From the NCBI GenBank assembly GCA_026391595.1, contig JAPLDY010000219.1, positions 1-32,104 of the forward strand: 32,104 nucleotides of DNA, in the 5' to 3' direction. Shown in pieces: positions 795-30,558 of the stretch. Source of the stretch: Bacteroidia bacterium. GTDB taxonomy: Bacteria; Bacteroidota; Bacteroidia; Bacteroidales; VadinHA17. Made by a program: the position numbers and the translations under genes. The first letter of the stretch is position 1. The number at the start of each line of letters is the position of its first letter. The notes beneath the pieces are model-generated. The model was given only the letters and a program-made list of their open reading frames with translations. It had not been told where the DNA came from and did not search any database.

Positions 795-3341
795 ATGAAA
801 ACAAAACTCTCCCTCATTTTATTAATTCTTGCCCTGAGCCCTATGCCCTGTGCACTGAGCCAGATACCGCAGGGATTTAATTATCAGGCTATCGCCCGCG
901 ACGGATCAGGCAACATATTGCCAAATACTTCTCTGCAGGCAATGTTATATGTCCAATCTTTATCAACAGGAGGAACAGTTTTCTGGAAGGAACTGCATTC
1001 AACTGTGACAACAAACAGCTTTGGGCTCTTCACCCTGGTTGTCGGGAAAGGCACCAGGCAGACAGAGAGCACGATGGCGACATTTGATCTTATTGAATGG
1101 AGTGTCACTCCCAAATATCTTAAGACGGAGATATACTATTCAGGTTCATGGAAAGATATGGGAACATCCCAGCTCCTGGCGGTTCCCTATGCGATGGTAG
1201 CAGAAGATCTTGCGGGCTCGGTAAAGAAACTGGCGGTTGCGGGAGAAACATCAGGACTTGAAGAGGCCCTTTTTGAAGTTAAGAACAAGGATGGTCAAAC
1301 AGTCTTTGCGGTTTATAATGAAGGCGTAAGGGTTTATGTCAGTGACGGAGCCAAGGCACTGAAAGGAGGCTTTGCTGTGGGAGGCTTCGGAACCGATAAA
1401 GCCGAATCAACAAAATATCTGTTTGTCGGCAAAGACAGTGTGAGAATATATCTGGATACCAATCCATTGACGAAATCTATTAAATCTGGTTTTGCAGTGG
1501 GAGGATATGACCTTACTAAAGGAACAGTTCAGAATTATCTCGATATAAGTTCAGATAGTGTAAGAATATATATTGATAGTAATCCCGATACTAAAAAACT
1601 GAAAGGAGGTTTTGCAGTCGGGGGTTATGATATGACTAAAGGAATTACCGGTGACTATTTTAATGTCTCCGGTAAATCTGATGCAGAGGTAATTATAGGA
1701 GAGCCGAGAGTATTATGGTATCCTGCCAAGGAGGCATTTCGTTCGGGGAATGTGCTTATTGAGTCGAAGGATAGTGTGGGATTGAATTCCTGGGCATCAG
1801 GATACAGGTCGAAAGCCATTGGTAACTATTCTCAGGCGCTAGGTTATCAGGCTATTGCAAGAAAAGATTATTCTACAGCAATTGGATATCAGGCAGTTGC
1901 TAATAAGATCAACTCATTTGCCTTTGGGCAGTGGGCAACTGCAAAAAATGAAGAGAGCTATGCTTTTGGAAGAGGAGCAATTGCTGAGGGATTCAGAAGC
2001 TATGCATTCGGAAGTGCTGGTGTAGATTCGGCACATCAAGTTACAGGAGTAACCTTAGCAAGAGGAGATTATTCATTCGCAATAGGACAAGGATCACAAT
2101 CATTAAAGATAGGTGCTTTTTCGATGGGTTTGGCCGATACTGCTGGAGGCGATTATTCTGTTGCAATAGGATATAAATCTTCAGCTTCTAAGAATGGATG
2201 TACTGCTATTGGGTACACTGTCAGAGCGACCGGAATAGCAGCAACAGCTCTGGGAATTGGTACTACTGCAAGTGGTGTGGCATCAACTGCTATGGGAATT
2301 AGTACTAAAGCTGAAGGAATGTATTCATTTGCTATGGGTGCTGGTACCAAAGCAACCGAAATTTATTCGACTGCTATGGGATCCGTATCAACGGCAAGCG
2401 GACAATATTCAACTGCAATAGGTTCGGTAACGACAGCAAGCGGAAATGGCTCATTGGCATTGGGAAACAATACAAAAGCTAGGTCAGCTTATGAAACAGT
2501 TATTGGCAGGCTTAATGTTGACTATACACCAATAAGTACAACTGCTTGGATTCCTTCTGACAGACTTTTTGTCATTGGCAACGGCGATGCTGTTTTTCCA
2601 TCAAATGCTTTGACAGTGCTTAAAAACGGCAATGTCGGTATCGGTACTTCAAATCCAGTAAATTACCTCCATATTGCTACAAAAGCATCTGGTGGAGGCA
2701 TAACTATTGATGAACCTGATGGGACAAAATGGGCTAATATCAGATTCCGAGAGGGAGGAGGCGATAATTACGGTGGATTTATTGAATACAATGCAAATAA
2801 TGATGTTTTTGTTATGGGCACAATAGAGAATAGTACCGTTAATGTAGGAGTTTCAGTTGTAAGAACATCTGGGAATGTTGGAATTGGGACAATAACACCA
2901 GGAACAAAACTTGCAATCGCAGGTCTGACAGGTACAACTTCCGGTTCATATCTCAGAATTTATAATGACAATGTCTATTACTATAGTTCCTCCATTAAAA
3001 CCAAAACTGACATTGAACCCCTTGAAGAAGATTTCTATAAAATTCTTCAGGCGCAACCTGTATCCTTTACCGACAAAGTAAGCGGTGAAAGAAATATTGG
3101 TTTCATAGCAGAAGAGTTTGATAAAATTGGTTTATCAAATCTTGTTATCTACGAGAAAGGTGAACCCGTTTCATTAAGTTATGAACTAATTTCCTTATAT
3201 AACCTGGAAATAATAAAAAACCAACAGAAAGCAATCAAGGAGCAGCAGCAGCAGATCGAGATTCAGAATCAGAAGATAGATCAGCTTATTGTTTTAATTG
3301 ACGAATTAAAGAAGGAGATTGCTTCGCTGCGCTCGCAATGA
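795..3341 (+). CDS. Secreted trimeric adhesin-like protein with C-terminal peptidase S74 chaperone domain
   Basis: The 848-residue protein begins with a Sec signal peptide (MKTKLSLILLILALSPMPCALSQ). Next comes an N-terminal domain seen in many Bacteroidota surface proteins (PQGFNYQAIARDGSGN). Residues about 178-295 hold three 38-40-residue repeats with the core GGFAVGGY. Residues about 325-600 are YadA-head-like 14-residue repeats of the form AxGxxAxAxGxxSxAxG, which build a trimeric beta-roll. Residues about 731-848 are an intramolecular chaperone of peptidase S74 type (SSIKTKTDIEPL, then GFIAEE), ending in a Q-rich coiled coil. In phage tailspikes this domain trimerises the protein and then cuts itself off at a Ser in such a motif. 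I infer a trimeric surface fibre or adhesin; the ligand is unknown. The last eight codons and the stop come from a dispersed repeat. Confidence 0.8.
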   Translation: MKTKLSLILLILALSPMPCALSQIPQGFNYQAIARDGSGNILPNTSLQAMLYVQSLSTGGTVFWKELHSTVTTNSFGLFTLVVGKGTRQTESTMATFDLIEWSVTPKYLKTEIYYSGSWKDMGTSQLLAVPYAMVAEDLAGSVKKLAVAGETSGLEEALFEVKNKDGQTVFAVYNEGVRVYVSDGAKALKGGFAVGGFGTDKAESTKYLFVGKDSVRIYLDTNPLTKSIKSGFAVGGYDLTKGTVQNYLDISSDSVRIYIDSNPDTKKLKGGFAVGGYDMTKGITGDYFNVSGKSDAEVIIGEPRVLWYPAKEAFRSGNVLIESKDSVGLNSWASGYRSKAIGNYSQALGYQAIARKDYSTAIGYQAVANKINSFAFGQWATAKNEESYAFGRGAIAEGFRSYAFGSAGVDSAHQVTGVTLARGDYSFAIGQGSQSLKIGAFSMGLADTAGGDYSVAIGYKSSASKNGCTAIGYTVRATGIAATALGIGTTASGVASTAMGISTKAEGMYSFAMGAGTKATEIYSTAMGSVSTASGQYSTAIGSVTTASGNGSLALGNNTKARSAYETVIGRLNVDYTPISTTAWIPSDRLFVIGNGDAVFPSNALTVLKNGNVGIGTSNPVNYLHIATKASGGGITIDEPDGTKWANIRFREGGGDNYGGFIEYNANNDVFVMGTIENSTVNVGVSVVRTSGNVGIGTITPGTKLAIAGLTGTTSGSYLRIYNDNVYYYSSSIKTKTDIEPLEEDFYKILQAQPVSFTDKVSGERNIGFIAEEFDKIGLSNLVIYEKGEPVSLSYELISLYNLEIIKNQQKAIKEQQQQIEIQNQKIDQLIVLIDELKKEIASLRSQ
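1326..1680 (+). repeat. Three tandem 38-40-codon repeats within the S74 adhesin gene
   Basis: Successive units start at V178, V216 and V256 of the protein with VRVYVSDGAKALKGGFAVGG, VRIYLDTNPLTKSIKSGFAV and VRIYIDSNPDTKKLKGGFAV. Each continues with a GGY/GGF-D/T-xxK stretch and ends in S-D/K-S. At DNA level the copies are clearly diverged, so this is an old protein-level duplication rather than a recent slippage array. Confidence 0.8.
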
Positions 3342-9009: not shown

Positions 9010-9726
9010 ATGAATATAGCATTGATAGGTTATGGAAGGATGGGCCATGAAATAGAAGAGATGGCGAAAAAGAGAGGCCATAATATTCCCCTCATTATAG
9101 ATATCGAAAACAGCAGCGATCTTAATCCGGAAAATATGAAGGGCATTGATGCTGCAATTGAGTTCTCCTCTCCGGAGGCAGCTTATAGAAATATATCCGT
9201 ATGTCTGGATTGCAAAATTCCTGTAGTATCAGGTACTACAGGGTGGCTGAAGGATTTTGACAAAGCTGCAGAATTATGCAATAAGAATGGAACGTCATTT
9301 ATCCATTCTTCAAATTTCAGCATCGGTGTAAACATGCTTTTCAGGCTTAACAGTGAGCTTGCAAAGCATATGAAGAATTACAGCGATTATACGGTGTCTA
9401 TTGAAGAGATCCATCATACAAAGAAGCTTGACGCTCCCAGTGGAACAGCTATAAATCTTGCTGAAGGAATTACAAAACAGCATGACGGATACAAAAGCTG
9501 GGGTTTGGAAAATGAAAAGGAAGATAGCAAAATACCAATCCGGGCGATTCGCGAGGGAACGGTCCCGGGAACACATACTGTGACCTGGGATTCCGACGTT
9601 GACACGCTGAGTCTCAGGCATGAAGCCAAGAACAGGAAAGGATTTGCGCTTGGAGCCGTAGTTGCTGCAGAGTTCATCCGGAACAGAAAAGGGGTATTCA
9701 CAATGGGTGATGTTCTTGGATTCTGA
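9010..9726 (+). CDS. dapB: 4-hydroxy-tetrahydrodipicolinate reductase
   Basis: DapB reduces 4-hydroxy-tetrahydrodipicolinate to tetrahydrodipicolinate with NAD(P)H in the diaminopimelate/lysine pathway. The 238-residue product is close to the usual length for Bacteroidota. The N-terminal Rossmann motif is GYGRMG. The catalytic block reads EIHHTKKLDAPSGTA with the conserved His and Lys, and SGTTGW and SSNFSIGVN are the other signature loops. The C terminus has KGFALGAVVAAEFI. The start is ATG 9010. It is 41 nt upstream of lepB on the same strand and probably cotranscribed. lysC and lysA of the same pathway lie about 10 kb away in the window. Confidence 0.97.
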   Translation: MNIALIGYGRMGHEIEEMAKKRGHNIPLIIDIENSSDLNPENMKGIDAAIEFSSPEAAYRNISVCLDCKIPVVSGTTGWLKDFDKAAELCNKNGTSFIHSSNFSIGVNMLFRLNSELAKHMKNYSDYTVSIEEIHHTKKLDAPSGTAINLAEGITKQHDGYKSWGLENEKEDSKIPIRAIREGTVPGTHTVTWDSDVDTLSLRHEAKNRKGFALGAVVAAEFIRNRKGVFTMGDVLGF

Positions 9727-9767
9727 TTATATTTTATACTTTTACGGCTTCAAAAATTCAAAACCAG

Positions 9768-11156
9768 ATGATAAATATCTTTCAGAGGAAATACATCACG
9801 TTTGCAATTGTTGCTATAATCTATATCCTTGTAGTTATATGGATAGGGAATTACTGGCTTCTGCTTGGACTTCCAATCATTTTTGACCTCTATGTGACTG
9901 AGAAGGTAAACTGGACATTCTGGAAAAAGAGACACGCGCCCAACAGTACATTTATTGAATGGCTTGACGCACTGATATTTGCAGTTATTGCCGTTTCACT
10001 TATAAATATTTTCCTGTTCCAGAACTACCGTATACCCACACCCTCAATGGAGAAATCGCTGCTTGTAGGCGACCATCTTTTTGTGAGCAAAATCGCTTAT
10101 GGTCCAAGGATGCCTAACACACCTATTGCTTTCCCGTTCACTCAGCATACAATGCCTATAACCAAAGGTAGATCATGGTCGAACCTTATTCAATGGGATT
10201 ACAGAAGGCTCGCCGGATTTGGCAAAGTAAAGAATAACGATCCGATAGTATTCAATTTCCCGGCCGGCGACACTGTTGTTGTAGAAAACCAGACAACAGC
10301 TTATTATGAGATAGTCCGGAGCAGTGCCAGAGAATTACAGGCAAGGTATAATTATGGAAACAGCATTCCGAAGCCTGTTGATTATTTTATGACAATGGCA
10401 CGGAAAGAGGTCCGCGACAATAACACAATAATTTATCGTCCTGTTGACAGGCGCGACAATTATGTTAAAAGATGTGTCGGTTTGCCCGGCGATACCATTA
10501 CTATCAGGGAAGGAACGCTTTATGTCAATGGCCATCTTGCTCCGGAGAGTGAAGGACAGCAGATCACCTATTATGTTGTAACGAACGGGACATCCATCAA
10601 TCCGAAAGCTTTTGAAAGGCTGAATATCCAAAAAACGGATCAGCAGATGATCTCCAGTTCAGTTTACGAGCTTCCTCTTACAAAGCGGAATGTTGAAACG
10701 ATATCGAAATTTACCAATGTCAAAAATGTATCAACAATTTTGGATACTCCCGGCAGATTTGTTCCATGGATCTTCCCTTATAAACCAGAACTCGGCTGGA
10801 ATGAAGATAATTTCGGGCCGCTCTGGATCCCGGTAAAAGGTACAACTGTGAAGCTTGACACCTCAAATCTTTGTCTTTATGATCGCGTTATAGACGTGTA
10901 TGAGGATAATGACCTGAAGGTTGAAGGAAGCAACATATATATTAATGGTAAAGTCGCTGACAGTTATACATTCAGGATGGACTATTACTGGATGATGGGA
11001 GATAACCGGCATAATTCTGCAGATTCGAGGTACTGGGGATTTGTCCCTGAAGATCATATTGTTGGCAAGCCAAAATTTATCTGGCTTTCACTGGACAAGG
11101 AAGCGACCGGGTTGAAAAAGCTACGGTTCAAACGAATGTTTATGGGTATAAAATAG
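9768..11156 (+). CDS. lepB: Signal peptidase I
   Basis: Type I signal peptidase cleaves Sec and Tat signal peptides at the outer face of the inner membrane. The 462-residue product is long for the family, as usual in Bacteroidota, because of an insertion between the conserved boxes. Two hydrophobic segments (about residues 11-40 and 66-82) anchor it. The catalytic serine is about S93 in PTPSMEKSLLVGD. The catalytic lysine lies in YVKRCVGLPGD. The final box reads MMGDNRHNSADSRYWGFVP. The insertion between the lysine box and the last box (about 120 residues) has no recognised domain. Linked to dapB by a 41-nt gap. A long inverted repeat follows its stop by 8 nt. Confidence 0.96.
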   Translation: MINIFQRKYITFAIVAIIYILVVIWIGNYWLLLGLPIIFDLYVTEKVNWTFWKKRHAPNSTFIEWLDALIFAVIAVSLINIFLFQNYRIPTPSMEKSLLVGDHLFVSKIAYGPRMPNTPIAFPFTQHTMPITKGRSWSNLIQWDYRRLAGFGKVKNNDPIVFNFPAGDTVVVENQTTAYYEIVRSSARELQARYNYGNSIPKPVDYFMTMARKEVRDNNTIIYRPVDRRDNYVKRCVGLPGDTITIREGTLYVNGHLAPESEGQQITYYVVTNGTSINPKAFERLNIQKTDQQMISSSVYELPLTKRNVETISKFTNVKNVSTILDTPGRFVPWIFPYKPELGWNEDNFGPLWIPVKGTTVKLDTSNLCLYDRVIDVYEDNDLKVEGSNIYINGKVADSYTFRMDYYWMMGDNRHNSADSRYWGFVPEDHIVGKPKFIWLSLDKEATGLKKLRFKRMFMGIK

Positions 11157-23677: not shown

Positions 23678-26620
23678 TTATTCTACGATCGAATCATATA
23701 TTGCCTGCAGTATTTTCGGCCGGATATTCAGGGTTGAGAGAAGGTTATTATTTCTTGTCGGATAAACTCTGTTACAAAGGAAAACGAGACTTAAATCTTT
23801 TTCCGGATCGACCCAGACAAAAGTCCCTGTATATCCGGTATGGCCGAAGCTAGCGGCAGATGCACTTTTAGCAGGCCAGGCATCCCTGGCGGAAAGCTCA
23901 GCATTATTAAGCGGAGGCTTGTCAAACCCGATCCCTCTCTTATTATTGTTTTCGGGAAACTGAACCTTTGTATATCTCTCCAGAACATCTTTCGCTATGA
24001 TCTGTTCTCCAGCGTAATTCCCCATTCTCCTGTAAAGCTCCATGAGTTTCATCAGGTCGTTTCCGGTGGCAAACAGACCTGCATGACCTGATATTCCCCC
24101 CTGCATCGCTGCTCCTTCATCATGAACTGTCCCTTGCAGCTGCTGCTTGCGGAATAGAGAGTCATATTCGGTCGGTATTATGCGGCTCAGAGGATATTTC
24201 TGCATCGGATTAAAAGTGATATCATAGGCACCAATCTTATGATAGATGCTGTCATAAACAAATTGATACCATTTTTCTCCTGCAAGCTTTTCTATAATAT
24301 CAGTGGAGATTATCAAACCATTGTCGGAGTAGACATATTTCTTTTCCCCCAGAGGTGATTTTTTAATCTCTGTAAGCATTTTTTTCCTGTATTTGTCGGT
24401 GATAAACAGTCCGGGAGCTACTTCAAGAGGATATTTTTCCGAAAATTCGGAATGGTAAATTCGCTTTTTATACTGGCCGTTCTTTTTTAAAGTTTCCTTC
24501 CAGAATGGGATCCACGATATAAGTCCGGCTTGGTGAGTAAGGATATCCTTCATTTTTAAATCAGCCTTGTCAGATCCCTTGTAAAAGGGAAGGTATTCAC
24601 CCAGAGTCTTGTCCGTCGAGAACTTTCCTTCCGAGTCGAGAAGCATCAATCCTGCAAGTGTTGAAGAGATCTTGGTTACAGAAGCGAGGTCAAACAGGTC
24701 ATCTTCACTCAAAGCTGTTCTGTCATCGTAAGTCTGGTAACCATAGGTCTTGCTGAATACCACAATACCTTTCCGGGCGACCAGCACCTCACAGCCGGGA
24801 AAAGCTTTCTGCTCCAGCCCGTAATTAACTATTGAATCGATCCTGCTTTCAAGGAGTTCTGAAGACATGCCTGCATTTTCCGGAAGCCCGTACTGGACTC
24901 TAAGGTTACCGGGTGTCAGGATCCCGAAATTATATGGCCAGGTTTCATTTATTGTTACAGGCAGAGAACCGCGGGCTCCTATTCCTCCGAAAATAAGCTG
25001 TGCCGAAAGATCTTCAGTGAATTCATTTTCCTGATAGGACAGGAGGAGGGCGGCAGCTTTATCCAGAGAGTTGATCCTGGCCAGTGCATAAGGATTACCG
25101 AACCATGTTACCACACAATGGTTCATAGCCGTCAGCTGATCGATCACGCTCTTAAGTTCGGGAGTTATGCCGAAATCCTTTTCAGGGTGCTGGTTAGTTC
25201 CGTATATTCCGGCAAGTACCACATCGTAACCTGACAGCTTCTTAAGGACTTCAGAAACTGCATCCGGTTTGGTAGGATCGATGAAGAAATTATCAGCGAG
25301 TTTGTAAGAGGATATCCTTTTCTGGAAAATGGTTATCGTCTTCCTGTTTATGGCAACAGTTGCTATCCTTATCTTGTCTGTATTTCTCAACGGCAGGATG
25401 TTCTGTTCATTTGTCAGCAGGGTAAGAGCATTTGCGTATAGTTCCCTTATCAGCGCTATTATTGCCGGCGTTGTCAGATCTTTTTCAATACCCTGCACGC
25501 CCAAACTGCCACGATCATTCAATCCGGCCCAGTATTTGGCAGCGAGAACTTTCCTGCATTTTTCATCTATAAGTGCTTGTGACAGAACGCCCTTTTTTAT
25601 TTTGTCTGCGATCGACTTAATCGCCAGATCAGGGTCAATAACGTACTCCAACACATCCATGCCGGCATTCAGGGCTGCTGGTTCAGCTTCTCCTGAGGCT
25701 GAATACTTTGTAACACCACCCATATTCATTGCATCTGAAAGGATCAGACCCTTGAAATTCAGTTCATTTCTTAATAGTCCGGTAAGTACTTTCTGAGAAA
25801 GGGTAGCAGGAAAATTACGGACAGAATCGATGGCCAGCACATTAAGATGGCCCGGCATCACGCCTGCTACTCCAGCATCGATCAGATTCCTGAAAGGAAC
25901 CAGTTCTACCGAATCAAGCCTGGCCTTTGAGTGAGTCAGGACGGGAAGATCAAAATGAGAGTCGACTTCAGTATCGCCATGGCCCGGGAAATGCTTTGCT
26001 ACCGCCATTATGCCGTTATCCTGCATTCCCTTCATGTACATCATAGATTTCCTGAGTACATTATCCTTGTTTTCTCCGAATGACCTGGTATTTATTACCG
26101 GATTAAGAGGATTAATATTAATGTCTGCAACTGGTGCCAGGTTGATATCGACACCAGCACGCCTGAATTGACCTGCCACAGCTTTTCCCATCCGGTAGAT
26201 CAGTGAATCATCCCTGATAGCCCCAAGTGTAAGCTGGTAAGGGAATCTCTCAACATTTTCCAGCCTCATGCCTATACCATATTCTCCGTCAATCGCAATA
26301 ATTACCGGCACTTTGGATATATGGCGGTAATAGTTGATCAGTTCAGTCTGCCTTTCTGCCTTGCCCTCGAAAAAAATGATTCCTCCCACGCCATTCTGAG
26401 TCACCTGTCTGTTCAGCCAGGCTTCATGTTCAATATCGCCGGTTGCAAAACCTGCAACCCAGATTAGCTGTGCGATCTTTTCCTGTGGAGAAAGTGATTT
26501 AAACACTGAATCGACCCATGGATGATCAATATATTTATAGAAAGGAGGATCTGATCTTTGTGCAACAATCATCAATGGGATAAGCAATAATATAACAAGT
26601 ATGAATCTTTTTGACCGCAT
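23678..26620 (-). CDS. GH3 beta-N-acetylglucosaminidase (NagZ-like) fused to a beta-lactamase-family serine hydrolase
   Basis: This is a 980-residue secreted fusion. A Sec signal (to about residue 20) is followed by a GH3 domain with the NagZ signature KHFPGHGDTEVDSH (209-222; His214 and Asp216 correspond to the acid/base dyad), VMPGHLN and the nucleophile Asp in GLILSDAMNM (about D296). A GH3 C-terminal alpha/beta domain spans about 400-580. Residues about 590-980 are a class C beta-lactamase/PBP-like domain with SVTK (647-650), YSD (764-766) and HTG (927-929). NagZ removes GlcNAc from muropeptides. B. subtilis AmiE, which then frees MurNAc from peptide, is also of the beta-lactamase superfamily, so the fusion could do both. 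This activity is inference. Last gene of the operon, 7 nt after GH18. Confidence 0.92.
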   Translation of the reverse strand: MRSKRFILVILLLIPLMIVAQRSDPPFYKYIDHPWVDSVFKSLSPQEKIAQLIWVAGFATGDIEHEAWLNRQVTQNGVGGIIFFEGKAERQTELINYYRHISKVPVIIAIDGEYGIGMRLENVERFPYQLTLGAIRDDSLIYRMGKAVAGQFRRAGVDINLAPVADININPLNPVINTRSFGENKDNVLRKSMMYMKGMQDNGIMAVAKHFPGHGDTEVDSHFDLPVLTHSKARLDSVELVPFRNLIDAGVAGVMPGHLNVLAIDSVRNFPATLSQKVLTGLLRNELNFKGLILSDAMNMGGVTKYSASGEAEPAALNAGMDVLEYVIDPDLAIKSIADKIKKGVLSQALIDEKCRKVLAAKYWAGLNDRGSLGVQGIEKDLTTPAIIALIRELYANALTLLTNEQNILPLRNTDKIRIATVAINRKTITIFQKRISSYKLADNFFIDPTKPDAVSEVLKKLSGYDVVLAGIYGTNQHPEKDFGITPELKSVIDQLTAMNHCVVTWFGNPYALARINSLDKAAALLLSYQENEFTEDLSAQLIFGGIGARGSLPVTINETWPYNFGILTPGNLRVQYGLPENAGMSSELLESRIDSIVNYGLEQKAFPGCEVLVARKGIVVFSKTYGYQTYDDRTALSEDDLFDLASVTKISSTLAGLMLLDSEGKFSTDKTLGEYLPFYKGSDKADLKMKDILTHQAGLISWIPFWKETLKKNGQYKKRIYHSEFSEKYPLEVAPGLFITDKYRKKMLTEIKKSPLGEKKYVYSDNGLIISTDIIEKLAGEKWYQFVYDSIYHKIGAYDITFNPMQKYPLSRIIPTEYDSLFRKQQLQGTVHDEGAAMQGGISGHAGLFATGNDLMKLMELYRRMGNYAGEQIIAKDVLERYTKVQFPENNNKRGIGFDKPPLNNAELSARDAWPAKSASAASFGHTGYTGTFVWVDPEKDLSLVFLCNRVYPTRNNNLLSTLNIRPKILQAIYDSIVE

Positions 26621-26627
26621 TTAAGAG

Positions 26628-28085
26628 CTATTTAGTTATTACTATTTTTCTTGAGCTTATTTTGTTCTTTGTTCTCAGGGTACAAAAGTAAACGCCGTCA
26701 TTTAATACGGCTGGATTGAAATCTTCAGTATAGACACCAGGTTCCCTCTCTTCATCAGCCAGGACGATCCTTTCCCTGCCATTTGTATCATATATTTTCA
26801 GGGAGATCGTTTCTTTTTCCAGGAGCGAGAATTTAATCGTTGATGTTCCGTAAACAGGAACAGGATTGGGTGAGATGCTTATAATTATTGTATTTTCAGC
26901 CACTTCTTCTTCTTTTTCAGAAAAAATATCTGTAATCGTGCTCCATACCTCATCATATGCTCCTTCATAACTCAGGGCCCAGATCCCGACTCCTGCCAGG
27001 CCTTCCGAAGCGGCATATTCATATTTCATCCTGAGACTCCTGTCATCATCAAACCAGAGCTGTCGCCATGTCGTTGATGACATATAGCTTACCCATGCTG
27101 ATTGTGTCAATTCGTCAAAAGTCTCAGAATATTGATTCGCATAATCCTGAGCGGAAGTATAGATTCTTGCGGTGGCTTTTCCGGTTGCGGAGGATTTCCT
27201 TGCTGTACTGGTCACAGGCCAGTCATATCCGTACCATGGAACTCCGAGCAGCAGTTTATTATTTGGTACACCTGCATTGAGATATGTATTTATTGTCCTG
27301 CTTATATTATAGTTTTCACCGGCAAGAGGCGCAACAGGTCCTGCTGTTGTTGATCCGCTCCAGTAGTAATCATATCCCATCACAATAAGGTAATCACATA
27401 TCTCCGAAAGGTTTTTCAGATCCCACGAACCTGACCAATCTACAGCAGGTGTCGCCATGGAAATTTCAGCATTTGGAAGCTCAGCCTTTATCATGTTAAC
27501 AGCCATCTGCATGAAGTTCACAAGGTTACTTCTCTGAGATAAGCTGACAGATTCCAGGTCGAAGTTGACTCCGTCAGCATTGCGTGATTTAAGCAAAGGA
27601 ATCAGTGTATTTACCAGATTCATCTGCTTGATAGGATCTGACAACAGCTCAGTGTTTTTTGCGGTTCCGAAATTGGTTACCGTAAGAAGGACTTTCGTGC
27701 CATTCTGGTGAGCGTAATCTATAATAGGTGTCGTGTTCCATCCCCGGATCGTAGTATAGCCTCCCGTAGCAGTATCAACCTCATAGCTGAAAAATGCAAT
27801 ATGTGAGAGGGCATTATAATCATAGTTGAGGTATGCTGTGGATGCTGCCCAGTATGGGTGCCAGCCCAGGATTTTTGCGGTAAGATTTTTTTCAGGAGCC
27901 ATGTCAAGTTCTGCAGGAAACGCTTTTCCTTTTTCGTCTGACGGCTGATCTTTAGGAAATATAGCGGAATAATATTCACTCTCTTCCTGATGAATTCCCA
28001 TTCTCAGTGTATCTGTCTCCTGTGACAAAAGATTACCTGAAATTAAGCTGAGAAGGAGTAGTACCAGAGTTCTGGTGCGGATCAT
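26628..28085 (-). CDS. Secreted GH18 hydrolase (YaaH/SleL-like) with type IX secretion tail
   Basis: The 485-residue protein has a Sec signal (MIRTRTLVLLLLSLISGNLLSQ) and a GH18 barrel. The catalytic motif is DGVNFDLE (171-178, acid E178), a DxxNxDxE variant found in the YaaH/SleL branch that attacks peptidoglycan as well as in some chitinases. Other GH18 marks are ILGWHPYW, YLIVMGYDYYW and GVGIWALSYEG. The last about 80 residues (SISPNPVPVYGTSTIKFSLL ... SRKIVITK) are a Por-type C-terminal sorting domain, so the enzyme should cross the outer membrane by T9SS. Start ATG overlaps the gntR stop in ATGA. Clustering with MurQ and NagZ-like genes favours peptidoglycan over chitin as substrate. Confidence 0.92.
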   Translation of the reverse strand: MIRTRTLVLLLLSLISGNLLSQETDTLRMGIHQEESEYYSAIFPKDQPSDEKGKAFPAELDMAPEKNLTAKILGWHPYWAASTAYLNYDYNALSHIAFFSYEVDTATGGYTTIRGWNTTPIIDYAHQNGTKVLLTVTNFGTAKNTELLSDPIKQMNLVNTLIPLLKSRNADGVNFDLESVSLSQRSNLVNFMQMAVNMIKAELPNAEISMATPAVDWSGSWDLKNLSEICDYLIVMGYDYYWSGSTTAGPVAPLAGENYNISRTINTYLNAGVPNNKLLLGVPWYGYDWPVTSTARKSSATGKATARIYTSAQDYANQYSETFDELTQSAWVSYMSSTTWRQLWFDDDRSLRMKYEYAASEGLAGVGIWALSYEGAYDEVWSTITDIFSEKEEEVAENTIIISISPNPVPVYGTSTIKFSLLEKETISLKIYDTNGRERIVLADEEREPGVYTEDFNPAVLNDGVYFCTLRTKNKISSRKIVITK

Positions 28086-28807
28086 AAGTAGGCTTTGTAG
28101 TACTTCTTGTAAATTTCCATATTGCGTTCAAGCAGAACCACAGAAACATCATAGGCCTTCTGGCTGTCTTTGGATTTTAATGCGTTCAGCAGTTCCTTCT
28201 GATATTTCATAGTATACTCTTTTTCCCCTTCAATATTTCCATAAATGAGGTTTCTCATCCTTGGGAGGAGGGAGTATATGGGTTCAAGGCTTATTAACAC
28301 GATTGGATTATGAGTTGCTTTGGCCAGGTTCATATGAAACCTGTTTATAATGTCGACTTCAAGCTGGGTATTGTCAGGATTGCTTCTTTCCAGCTCGGCA
28401 AGATTCTTCTGGAGTGTTTTTATATCATTTTCGGTCCTGTTCCTGGCGGCAAGCCTTGCCACTTCAGGTTCGAAAAGACGTCTGACCTCTATGATCTGAA
28501 GAATAAGGTCTGAATTGAATCTCAGATCGTAAAACAGGTGAAGGGAGTTAATAGCATCTTCGATTTTGAGTTCCGTGACGTAGATCCCGCTTCCCTTTCT
28601 TATATCAATGAGTCCCCGGGCGCTTAGCCTCCTGAGAGCCTCCCTGAGGGCAGTACGGCTTACTGCAAACTGTGCGCAAAGCTCTTTCTCTGATGGTAGC
28701 TTGGTTCCCGGAATGAGCTTTTTCTGTCTGATCGCCTCTTCAATCTTACGTTCAATTTTCTGACTCAGTGTAAGTCCGGTCCCTATTTTGGTGAAGATAT
28801 CTTCCAT
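28082..28807 (-). CDS. FadR-subfamily GntR transcriptional regulator
   Basis: This is a 241-residue regulator. The N-terminal winged helix-turn-helix is clear (GTKLPSEKELCAQFAVSRTALREALRRL, then GLIDIRKGSGIYV). The all-helical FCD ligand domain follows (about 95-240) with FEPEVARLAARN and the D...H...H segment VDIINRFHMNLAKATHNP. The usual later metal-site histidines seem to be replaced (SLLPRMRNLIY; MKYQKELLNALKSKD), so ligand binding may differ from metal-dependent members. Known MurNAc loci use RpiR-type MurR, so this would be a different control solution. It sits between murQ (55-nt gap) and GH18 (4-nt overlap). A GTnnnAC palindrome lies in the gap before its ATG. Confidence 0.92.
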   Translation of the reverse strand: MEDIFTKIGTGLTLSQKIERKIEEAIRQKKLIPGTKLPSEKELCAQFAVSRTALREALRRLSARGLIDIRKGSGIYVTELKIEDAINSLHLFYDLRFNSDLILQIIEVRRLFEPEVARLAARNRTENDIKTLQKNLAELERSNPDNTQLEVDIINRFHMNLAKATHNPIVLISLEPIYSLLPRMRNLIYGNIEGEKEYTMKYQKELLNALKSKDSQKAYDVSVVLLERNMEIYKKYYKAYL

Positions 28808-28862: not shown

Positions 28863-29717
28863 TCACTGATAGTTCTCCTTATAAGATTCCAGGGCTTTCT
28901 TTACCGAACCATGCTGCATGAGGAGTATTCTTGCAGCTTCCCTTTGGATATTCAGCTCTTCAACTATCATTCGCGTTCCCCTTTCAATTAGCTTCCTGTT
29001 CGTCAGCTGCATGTTGACCATTTTATTGCCCTTTACCCTGCCAAGTTTGATCATGACCGTGGTGGTGATCATATTGAGAACCATTTTTTGCGCAGTCCCG
29101 GCTTTGAGCCTTGTACTGCCGGTGACAAACTCCGGACCCACAACCACCACTATGGGAATTTCAGTCGCTTCCACCAGCAGGCTTTCCGGATTACATGTTA
29201 TACAACCTGTCAGAATTCCATTTTCCCTTGCTTTTTTTATCCCTCCAATGACATACGGAGTTGTTCCGGAGGCAGCGATACCTATGACCGTATCTTTAGT
29301 GTTGATATTAAAGATCTCGAGTTCCTTCCATGCTTTATTGAGATCATCCTCAGCAGATTCGACAGCTCTCCTGAGAGCTACTTCTCCTCCGGCTATCAGT
29401 CCTATGACCATCGTACCAGGGACCCCGAATGTAGGAGGTATCTCAGAAGCATCGAGGACACCAAGCCTCCCGCTTGTACCTGCACCAAGGTAAAAAATAC
29501 GTCCTCCCTTTTTCATCCTTGTGATGATCTTGCTGACAAGCTTCTCAATCTGCGGAATAGCCTTCCTGACTGCCAGATGGACTTTTGAATCTTCCTGATT
29601 GATATTGGAAAGCAATTGTTGTACCGTCATCTTGTCGAGGTTCTCAAAGTTCGAAGAAGATTCCGTAATGCTCAGTTTCTCGAACGTATTAACAGGTTTG
29701 GACATGTTTTTATTCAT
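28863..29717 (-). CDS. murQ: N-acetylmuramic acid 6-phosphate etherase
   Basis: MurQ cleaves the D-lactyl ether of MurNAc-6-phosphate, giving GlcNAc-6-phosphate and lactate, in the cytoplasm. The 284-residue product is a SIS-domain protein of standard length. It shows SSNFENLDKMTVQQLLSNINQED, the sugar-phosphate loop FYLGAGTSGRLGVLDASEIPPTFG, the catalytic-glutamate region VESAEDD, GIAASGTTPYVIGGI and the strongly conserved STRLKAGTAQKMVLNM and GNKMVNMQLTN. ATG 29717 overlaps the kinase gene by 8 nt; a second ATG at 29705 would leave a 4-nt gap instead. Its substrate would come from the upstream kinase. Confidence 0.97.
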   Translation of the reverse strand: MNKNMSKPVNTFEKLSITESSSNFENLDKMTVQQLLSNINQEDSKVHLAVRKAIPQIEKLVSKIITRMKKGGRIFYLGAGTSGRLGVLDASEIPPTFGVPGTMVIGLIAGGEVALRRAVESAEDDLNKAWKELEIFNINTKDTVIGIAASGTTPYVIGGIKKARENGILTGCITCNPESLLVEATEIPIVVVVGPEFVTGSTRLKAGTAQKMVLNMITTTVMIKLGRVKGNKMVNMQLTNRKLIERGTRMIVEELNIQREAARILLMQHGSVKKALESYKENYQ

Positions 29718-30558
29718 TAGAACCGCTTAAATGATATCTTACAAGATCTTCAGCCGGCGAAAGTGTTATTTTACCAGTCTTGAGACCATTATTTGAAAGG
29801 CACCTTTCAAGAAATGGTCTGAAATAATAAGCAATGCTGCCTGTGAAATTGACAGCATGATCTTTTGATTCAGGGTACTGAAGTACGTTCCTCATTATGA
29901 ATTCATCAAAACTTGAAGTTATAATCTCCTGCAATTCAGGAATTTGACTATTATCTGAAAGAAAAATAGCAAACTGACCCAGGAACCTGTTAGGAAAGGG
30001 TTTCATGTATACGCTGTCGAGGATATCTGCACTACTCATAGCATAGGTACTGAAGAACGCTTTAATGACATTCTCCGGTACCTGTTTCTTTAGTACGGCA
30101 GAGAGCAGTTTTTTACCAAGAACTGCCCCTCCTCCTTCATCACCAAGGATATAGCCAAGCGGGGAAACATTGGAAACTACTTCACGCCCATTGTAATAAC
30201 ATGAATTTGAACCTGTCCCCATGATACAGGCTATACCAGGTTTATTCTGGCATAGTGCACGGGCTGCACCAAGGAGATCGCTGCCAATGAAGACCTCACT
30301 TTCGGGAAAAAGCATCTTGAGCGCACTCTTTACCCTGCTGTTCTTTGCTTCGCTGTTACAACCAGTGCCATAGAACCAGATCTTAAAAGGATTTTCCCCG
30401 GAAAAGGGTTTAAGCTCCTTTTTGATAAGCTGATATATCTCATCCACTGATAGGAAATAGGGATTTATCCCGGCTGAGAAGATTGAAGCCCCGGATTTGC
30501 CGTTTTCAATCGCTCTCCATTCCGTTTTTGTTGAACCTCCGTCGGCTATCAGGATCAT
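29710..30558 (-). CDS. BadF/BadG-type amino sugar kinase (MurNAc/GlcNAc kinase, MurK-like)
   Basis: The 282-residue cytoplasmic kinase has the actin-like ATPase fold. The phosphate-1 loop is ADGGSTKTEWRAI, the phosphate-2 segment is ACIMGTGSNSCYYNG and the adenosine-side block is PLGYILGDEGGGAVLG. The family includes N-acetylglucosamine kinase and Clostridium acetobutylicum MurK, which phosphorylates MurNAc and GlcNAc. In species without a MurNAc phosphotransferase import system, such a kinase makes the MurQ substrate. Overlap with murQ (8 nt) strongly supports this role here. First gene of the operon; the -7 box and a palindrome lie within 30 nt of the ATG. Confidence 0.9.
   Translation of the reverse strand: MILIADGGSTKTEWRAIENGKSGASIFSAGINPYFLSVDEIYQLIKKELKPFSGENPFKIWFYGTGCNSEAKNSRVKSALKMLFPESEVFIGSDLLGAARALCQNKPGIACIMGTGSNSCYYNGREVVSNVSPLGYILGDEGGGAVLGKKLLSAVLKKQVPENVIKAFFSTYAMSSADILDSVYMKPFPNRFLGQFAIFLSDNSQIPELQEIITSSFDEFIMRNVLQYPESKDHAVNFTGSIAYYFRPFLERCLSNNGLKTGKITLSPAEDLVRYHLSGSNE

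Follow-up and report, generated by a model that had tools for sequence, protein, structure and literature searches.

The window, a stretch of 32,104 nucleotides from contig JAPLDY010000219.1 of a Bacteroidia assembly (GCA_026391595.1), contains five tightly packed minus-strand genes that overlap or are separated by short gaps and that encode, in turn, a MurK-type kinase, MurQ, a GntR regulator, a GH18 glycosidase and, last, a protein in which a NagZ-like GH3 part is joined to a serine hydrolase (Table 1). A preliminary description of this DNA had presented the last product as a single 980-residue polypeptide, and this holds: the reading frame opens with ATG and runs through 980 codons in one frame with zero internal stops, and Pfam domains are found in both halves. 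It had also placed murQ and a kinase nearby. Both are indeed there, and their presence in the same operon bears out the MurNAc-catabolic context; the GntR and GH18 genes that lie between murQ and the fusion had gone unlisted, as had the second GH3 domain (PF01915) of an otherwise correctly described NagZ-type part. The window also encodes, at 795-3341, an 848-aa protein that has YadA-head repeats and ends in a Peptidase_S74 (endosialidase chaperone) domain.

Table 1. The operon genes and the parts of the fusion protein, in window coordinates.
Feature	Coordinates	Strand	Basis
MurNAc/GlcNAc kinase, Bacteroidota MurK type	29710..30558	(-)	PDB matches
murQ, MurNAc-6-phosphate etherase	28863..29717	(-)	NCBIfam TIGR00274 over cut-off
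GntR/FCD regulator (NanR-like)	28082..28807	(-)	profile searches
GH18 glycosidase, T9SS sorting tail	26628..28085	(-)	profile and structure searches
NagZ-AmiE-like fusion protein, 980 aa	23678..26620	(-)	ORF, translation, Pfam
Probable signal peptide MRSKRFILVILLLIPLMIVA (= MRSKRFILVILLLIPLMIVAQ), lipobox Cys absent	26561..26620	(-)	judged by eye
GH3 N-terminal (TIM barrel) domain, NagZ type	25541..26485	(-)	PF00933; B. subtilis NagZ among top PDB matches
KHFPGHGDT, His/Asp catalytic dyad loop, residues 209-217	25970..25996	(-)	aligns with B. subtilis NagZ KHFPGHGDT; core residues invariant, n = 27
D296, predicted GH3 catalytic nucleophile	25733..25735	(-)	invariant, n = 27; aligns with TDALNM Asp of B. 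subtilis NagZ
GH3 C-terminal domain	24938..25423	(-)	PF01915
Serine beta-lactamase-like domain, placed with limited statistical certainty in the AmiE/YfeW clade	23747..24838	(-)	PF00144 and trees
ASVTK (SxxK) nucleophile motif, residues 646-650 (S647, K650)	24671..24685	(-)	motif read; invariant, n = 27
YSD motif, residues 764-766 (Y764)	24323..24331	(-)	also in AmiE and YfeW
HTG motif, residues 927-929, inside FGHTGYTGT	23834..23842	(-)	also in AmiE and YfeW

The Pfam E-values exclude a chance match for either half: Glyco_hydro_3 (PF00933) covers residues 46-360 (E = 2e-77, 261 bits against a cut-off of 27), Glyco_hydro_3_C (PF01915) residues 400-561 (E = 5.5e-8) and Beta-lactamase (PF00144) residues 595-958 (E = 3.9e-42). 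The predicted structure of the whole protein has a mean pLDDT of 92.8, and a Pfam search returned no Por_Secre_tail match that would indicate a T9SS tail on it. Among 27 full-length fusions, which apart from the window protein itself share 32-69% identity with it, residues K209, H210, H214, D216, D296, S647, K650, Y764, S765, G926, H927 and G929 are invariant. An artefactual or chance fusion is ruled out, since the single frame is kept across the genus and most sampled families of the order; an apparent fission in one same-genus genome (G034, locus L170) is likewise not a natural one, as the break falls on an N in the assembly.

By sequence and model the GH3 half is clearly of the NagZ type, and it very likely has the predicted NagZ-type activity. 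The signature that had been called complete is so, the KHFPGHGDT loop and D296 (within LSDAMNM, residues 294-300) both aligning with B. subtilis NagZ, and the top fold match of the whole-protein model is that same enzyme with bound GlcNAc-MurNAc (4gyj). The score against the NCBIfam equivalog PRK05337 (beta-N-acetylhexosaminidase) is 160 bits, under the cut-off of 207, so that the fusion is a relative and not a member of this equivalog, whose profile of 340 positions is shorter than the two-domain GH3 form found here.

This NagZ-AmiE-like fusion is of a known kind: it is common in both the order and the phylum, and RmNag3, an enzyme of this kind, was described in 2020. A match is present in 60 of 60 close genomes, and the whole fusion lies in one open frame in at least 20 of the 24 families of the order outside the genus (manual count). 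Of the 198 genomes sampled from the phylum, 168 have a match at 1e-60; manual counting gives about 40 near-full-length matches and about 50 more frames of roughly 950-1080 aa in which the reported match ends near residue 710, and all three of the latter that were opened (G238, G231 and G254) have a complete C-terminal domain. Other genomes of the phylum have NagZ alone, and at one locus (L189) separate genes stand side by side. In one family (f26) a stand-alone NagZ occurs together with a protein of some 610 aa that is encoded separately, elsewhere in the genome (L184:7889-9742(-) and L186:7818-9632(+)), which matches fusion residues 397-978 and consists of a GH3-C-like stretch and an AmiE-like domain without GH3 N; in the L186 protein Pfam detects the Beta-lactamase domain only. 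The linkage to murQ is narrower than the fusion itself. murQ adjoins it in four opened same-genus neighbourhoods (L152, L153, L154 and L159), while several others are truncated by the end of the contig; no neighbourhood opened from another genus shows it, so as a general feature the adjacency is ruled out, being confined to part of the genus.

The remaining operon genes and the rest of the source genome bear on what the fusion might act upon. The kinase has PDB matches to 8ow9, a 'Putative novel MurNAc kinase' (1.1e-71), and to PG1100 (1.1e-78). The GH18 protein, with the active site DGVNFDLE, has among its nearest solved structures the spore-wall glycosylases YdhD and YaaH (spore cortex-lytic), which makes peptidoglycan, not chitin, a possible substrate, and encoded as it is in a murQ operon this enzyme may be peptidoglycan-active. 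Family searches of the source genome found neither AnmK nor an Amidase_2 (AmpD type), which fits a release of MurNAc before uptake, although the assembly is 95.5% complete and these absences are therefore not firm. The same searches found three Amidase_3 genes, so the fusion is not the sole candidate amidase of the genome, and an AmpG-like permease scoring below the family cut-off, so that intact muropeptides might be imported too. Some 7 kb separate the permease gene (L199:996-2657(+), contig 46) from a gene of the NamZ_N (exo-N-acetylmuramidase) type (9346-10152(-)) whose product looks short at 269 aa, the N-terminal domain alone. A clear MurT, which we take to be a DUF5009 protein, was not found in this genome, where DUF5009 matches are sub-threshold only. 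A second AmiE-clade serine hydrolase, of 424 aa and with YSD and GHTGFTGT, is encoded at L200:2017-3288(+) (contig 150), with an Amidase_3 gene (L200:5137-6822(-)) some 2 kb away.

All three motifs that had been read in the serine-hydrolase half (SVTK, YSD and HTG) are present, and they form part of a longer signature common to the fusion domain, Bacillus AmiE and E. coli YfeW/PBP4B: ASxTK, YSD, G[VI]SGHAGLF, GHTGxTGT and LxNR, the last four of which are kept by clade members with small variations. Motif comparison found the full set absent from EstB, EstCE1, 4ivi, EH7, AmpC, AmpH and R61. Identity to AmiE and to AmiE-like proteins encoded directly upstream of nagZ in Bacillaceae is about 28-31% over some 390-415 aa. 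The top NCBIfam match of this half is PBP4B/YfeW at 138 bits, with class C beta-lactamase at 45 bits; as the cut-off of the PBP4B equivalog (PRK03642) is 385 bits, the domain is a relative of YfeW and not an equivalog.

The best trees agree with the motifs. In a 55-row tree, whose sources include the Bacillus murQ-murR-murP-amiE-nagZ-ybbC operon (L040) and E. coli murQ-murP-yfeW (L120), whose R61 and EstB sequences were verified residue by residue against PDB chains, and whose rows exclude B. subtilis PBP4*, the fusion domains form one clade with AmiE, YfeW, stand-alone relatives near nagZ and one same-genome paralogue (98/84, the measures being bootstrap and SH-aLRT), apart from EstB, EstCE1, 4ivi, EH7, AmpC, AmpH and R61. 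Support is 93/97 once five long rows are removed. The fusion domain is a cousin of AmiE: the closer kin of AmiE is YfeW, with which it shares a long stem. The AU test does not reject alternatives in which the fusion domains join R61/AmpC (p = 0.09) or AmiE/YfeW alone (p = 0.07). The AmiE-like character proposed in the preliminary description is supported by the clade, with limited statistical certainty; E. coli YfeW, however, lies inside it, and membership alone does not indicate an amidase.

Taken together, the evidence points to a bifunctional muropeptide hydrolase that is exported, probably to the periplasm, and is predicted to release GlcNAc, MurNAc and peptide, and we consider this the likely function of the protein. 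The NagZ half would take the non-reducing GlcNAc off GlcNAc-MurNAc-peptide, and the AmiE/YfeW-type half would next cut the stem peptide from MurNAc. The freed sugars would then enter the cell and be phosphorylated by the MurK-type kinase of the operon, MurQ would convert MurNAc-6P to GlcNAc-6P, and the pathway might be regulated by the GntR protein. Genes for members of the AmiE/YfeW group also belong to murQ operons in two further phyla, those of E. coli and B. subtilis. The amidase activity is something we infer, given that YfeW, a close relative, has been described as a DD-carboxypeptidase.

Several other activities can be envisioned for the serine-hydrolase half. It may act on muropeptides in a different way, by DD-trimming, O-deacetylation or acyl transfer instead of as a simple amidase, a doubtful possibility that nonetheless deserves some weight. 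Room for it is left by the YfeW report and by a group of Alteromonadales proteins of 822-841 aa (L063:1787-4288(-), L078:383-2848(-) and L079:4986-7508(-)) that carry a C-terminal AmiE-group serine hydrolase, placed by the tree together with Bacillus AmiE (95/93). In the L063 protein Pfam finds an Amidase_2 (zinc-type) and a PG-binding domain before it, so that two amidase-type catalysts apparently share one chain; such a joining would be odd if both were amidases, and it counts against the function that we favour. Another candidate is a DD-carboxypeptidase or DD-endopeptidase of the kind described for YfeW/PBP4B, with which the fusion would trim both ends of a muropeptide and leave the sugar-peptide bond uncut; YfeW has every motif, lies inside the clade and is cited as a DD-carboxypeptidase. 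We regard it as unlikely: for B. subtilis AmiE, the closest characterised neighbour of YfeW, MurNAc-L-Ala amidase activity is reported, the fusion domain has YSD as its second motif where R61 and AmpH have YSN, and peptide-free MurNAc is required for catabolism through MurQ.

A family VIII-type esterase, which might for instance remove O-acetyl groups from MurNAc, gains some ground from structure, since a fold search with the C-terminal domain model (pLDDT 94.3) puts family VIII esterases (EH7, 4ivi) and EstG first. The PDB matches include no structure of AmiE or YfeW, though, so this ranking cannot separate AmiE from esterases. Grouping with esterases, the outcome that would tell against the AmiE assignment, does not appear in the best trees, which keep the two apart, and is left unrejected by the AU test (p = 0.12); family VIII esterases lack the YSD, GHAGLF and GHTGxTGT signature, and in bit score the AmiE-type proteins (119-183, blastp) lie above the nearest solved esterase (about 56, phmmer), figures that come from two different programs. 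On balance an esterase is improbable. Even less credible is a catalytically weak half that chiefly aids substrate binding or the stability of the glucosaminidase half. RmNag3 has been characterised as a glucosaminidase only, as far as the accessible part of its description goes, and the third YSD residue varies in some homologues (YSG in L163 and L182, YSC in L168), but S647, K650, Y764, S765, H927 and G929 do not vary among the 27 diverse fusions and are kept by stand-alone relatives. An amidase-type muropeptide hydrolase thus remains the reading that we prefer.

Fused enzymes of this kind are widespread in Bacteroidota, and the gene in the window is an ordinary representative of the family. 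The activity of the serine-hydrolase half would tell how Bacteroidota free MurNAc outside the cytoplasm, and it would also bear on the making of muropeptides that hosts can sense. Were a non-amidase activity on muropeptides to prove true, the phylum-wide fusion would represent an unrecognised step in Bacteroidota cell-wall recycling. With kinase, murQ, GntR, GH18 and fusion genes in one set, the pathway is readily testable; our literature search found no report of an assay of the serine-hydrolase half of any such fusion.

Among known systems the nearest in architecture is RmNag3 (Rmar_0925) of Rhodothermus marinus, which the accessible part of its description presents as the sole characterised enzyme of its kind and as a proven N-acetylglucosaminidase that frees GlcNAc from chito-oligosaccharides. 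Compared by description, it has the same signal peptide, GH3 domains 1 and 2 and C-terminal beta-lactamase domain as the window protein; the portions of the RmNag3 literature available report no assay of the last and leave it out of the structural model. Peptidoglycan turnover in the periplasm is the role that its authors proposed, and they drew the parallel with B. subtilis NagZ and AmiE. Its gene is not beside murQ; the genes with which it is predicted to share a transcript encode an rRNA methyltransferase, an ATPase and a regulator. The murT-murK-murQ pathway of Tannerella forsythia shares with the window operon a MurK-type kinase and a MurQ etherase, but it includes murT, and the accessible text of the T. 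forsythia papers holds no NagZ-AmiE fusion. E. coli YfeW (PBP4B), described as a low-affinity PBP and DD-carboxypeptidase, has clade and motifs in common with the C-terminal domain and sits in a murQ-murP-yfeW operon, yet it is a stand-alone protein. In B. subtilis muropeptide rescue, too, NagZ (YbbD) and AmiE (YbbE) are two separate proteins, AmiE sharing about 28% identity with the fusion domain, and uptake is through the PTS transporter MurP, in contrast to the separate kinase of the window operon; the two systems nonetheless have homologous parts, equal catalytic motifs and a murQ-containing operon, which in Bacillus runs murQ-murR-murP-amiE-nagZ-ybbC (PMC5061867).
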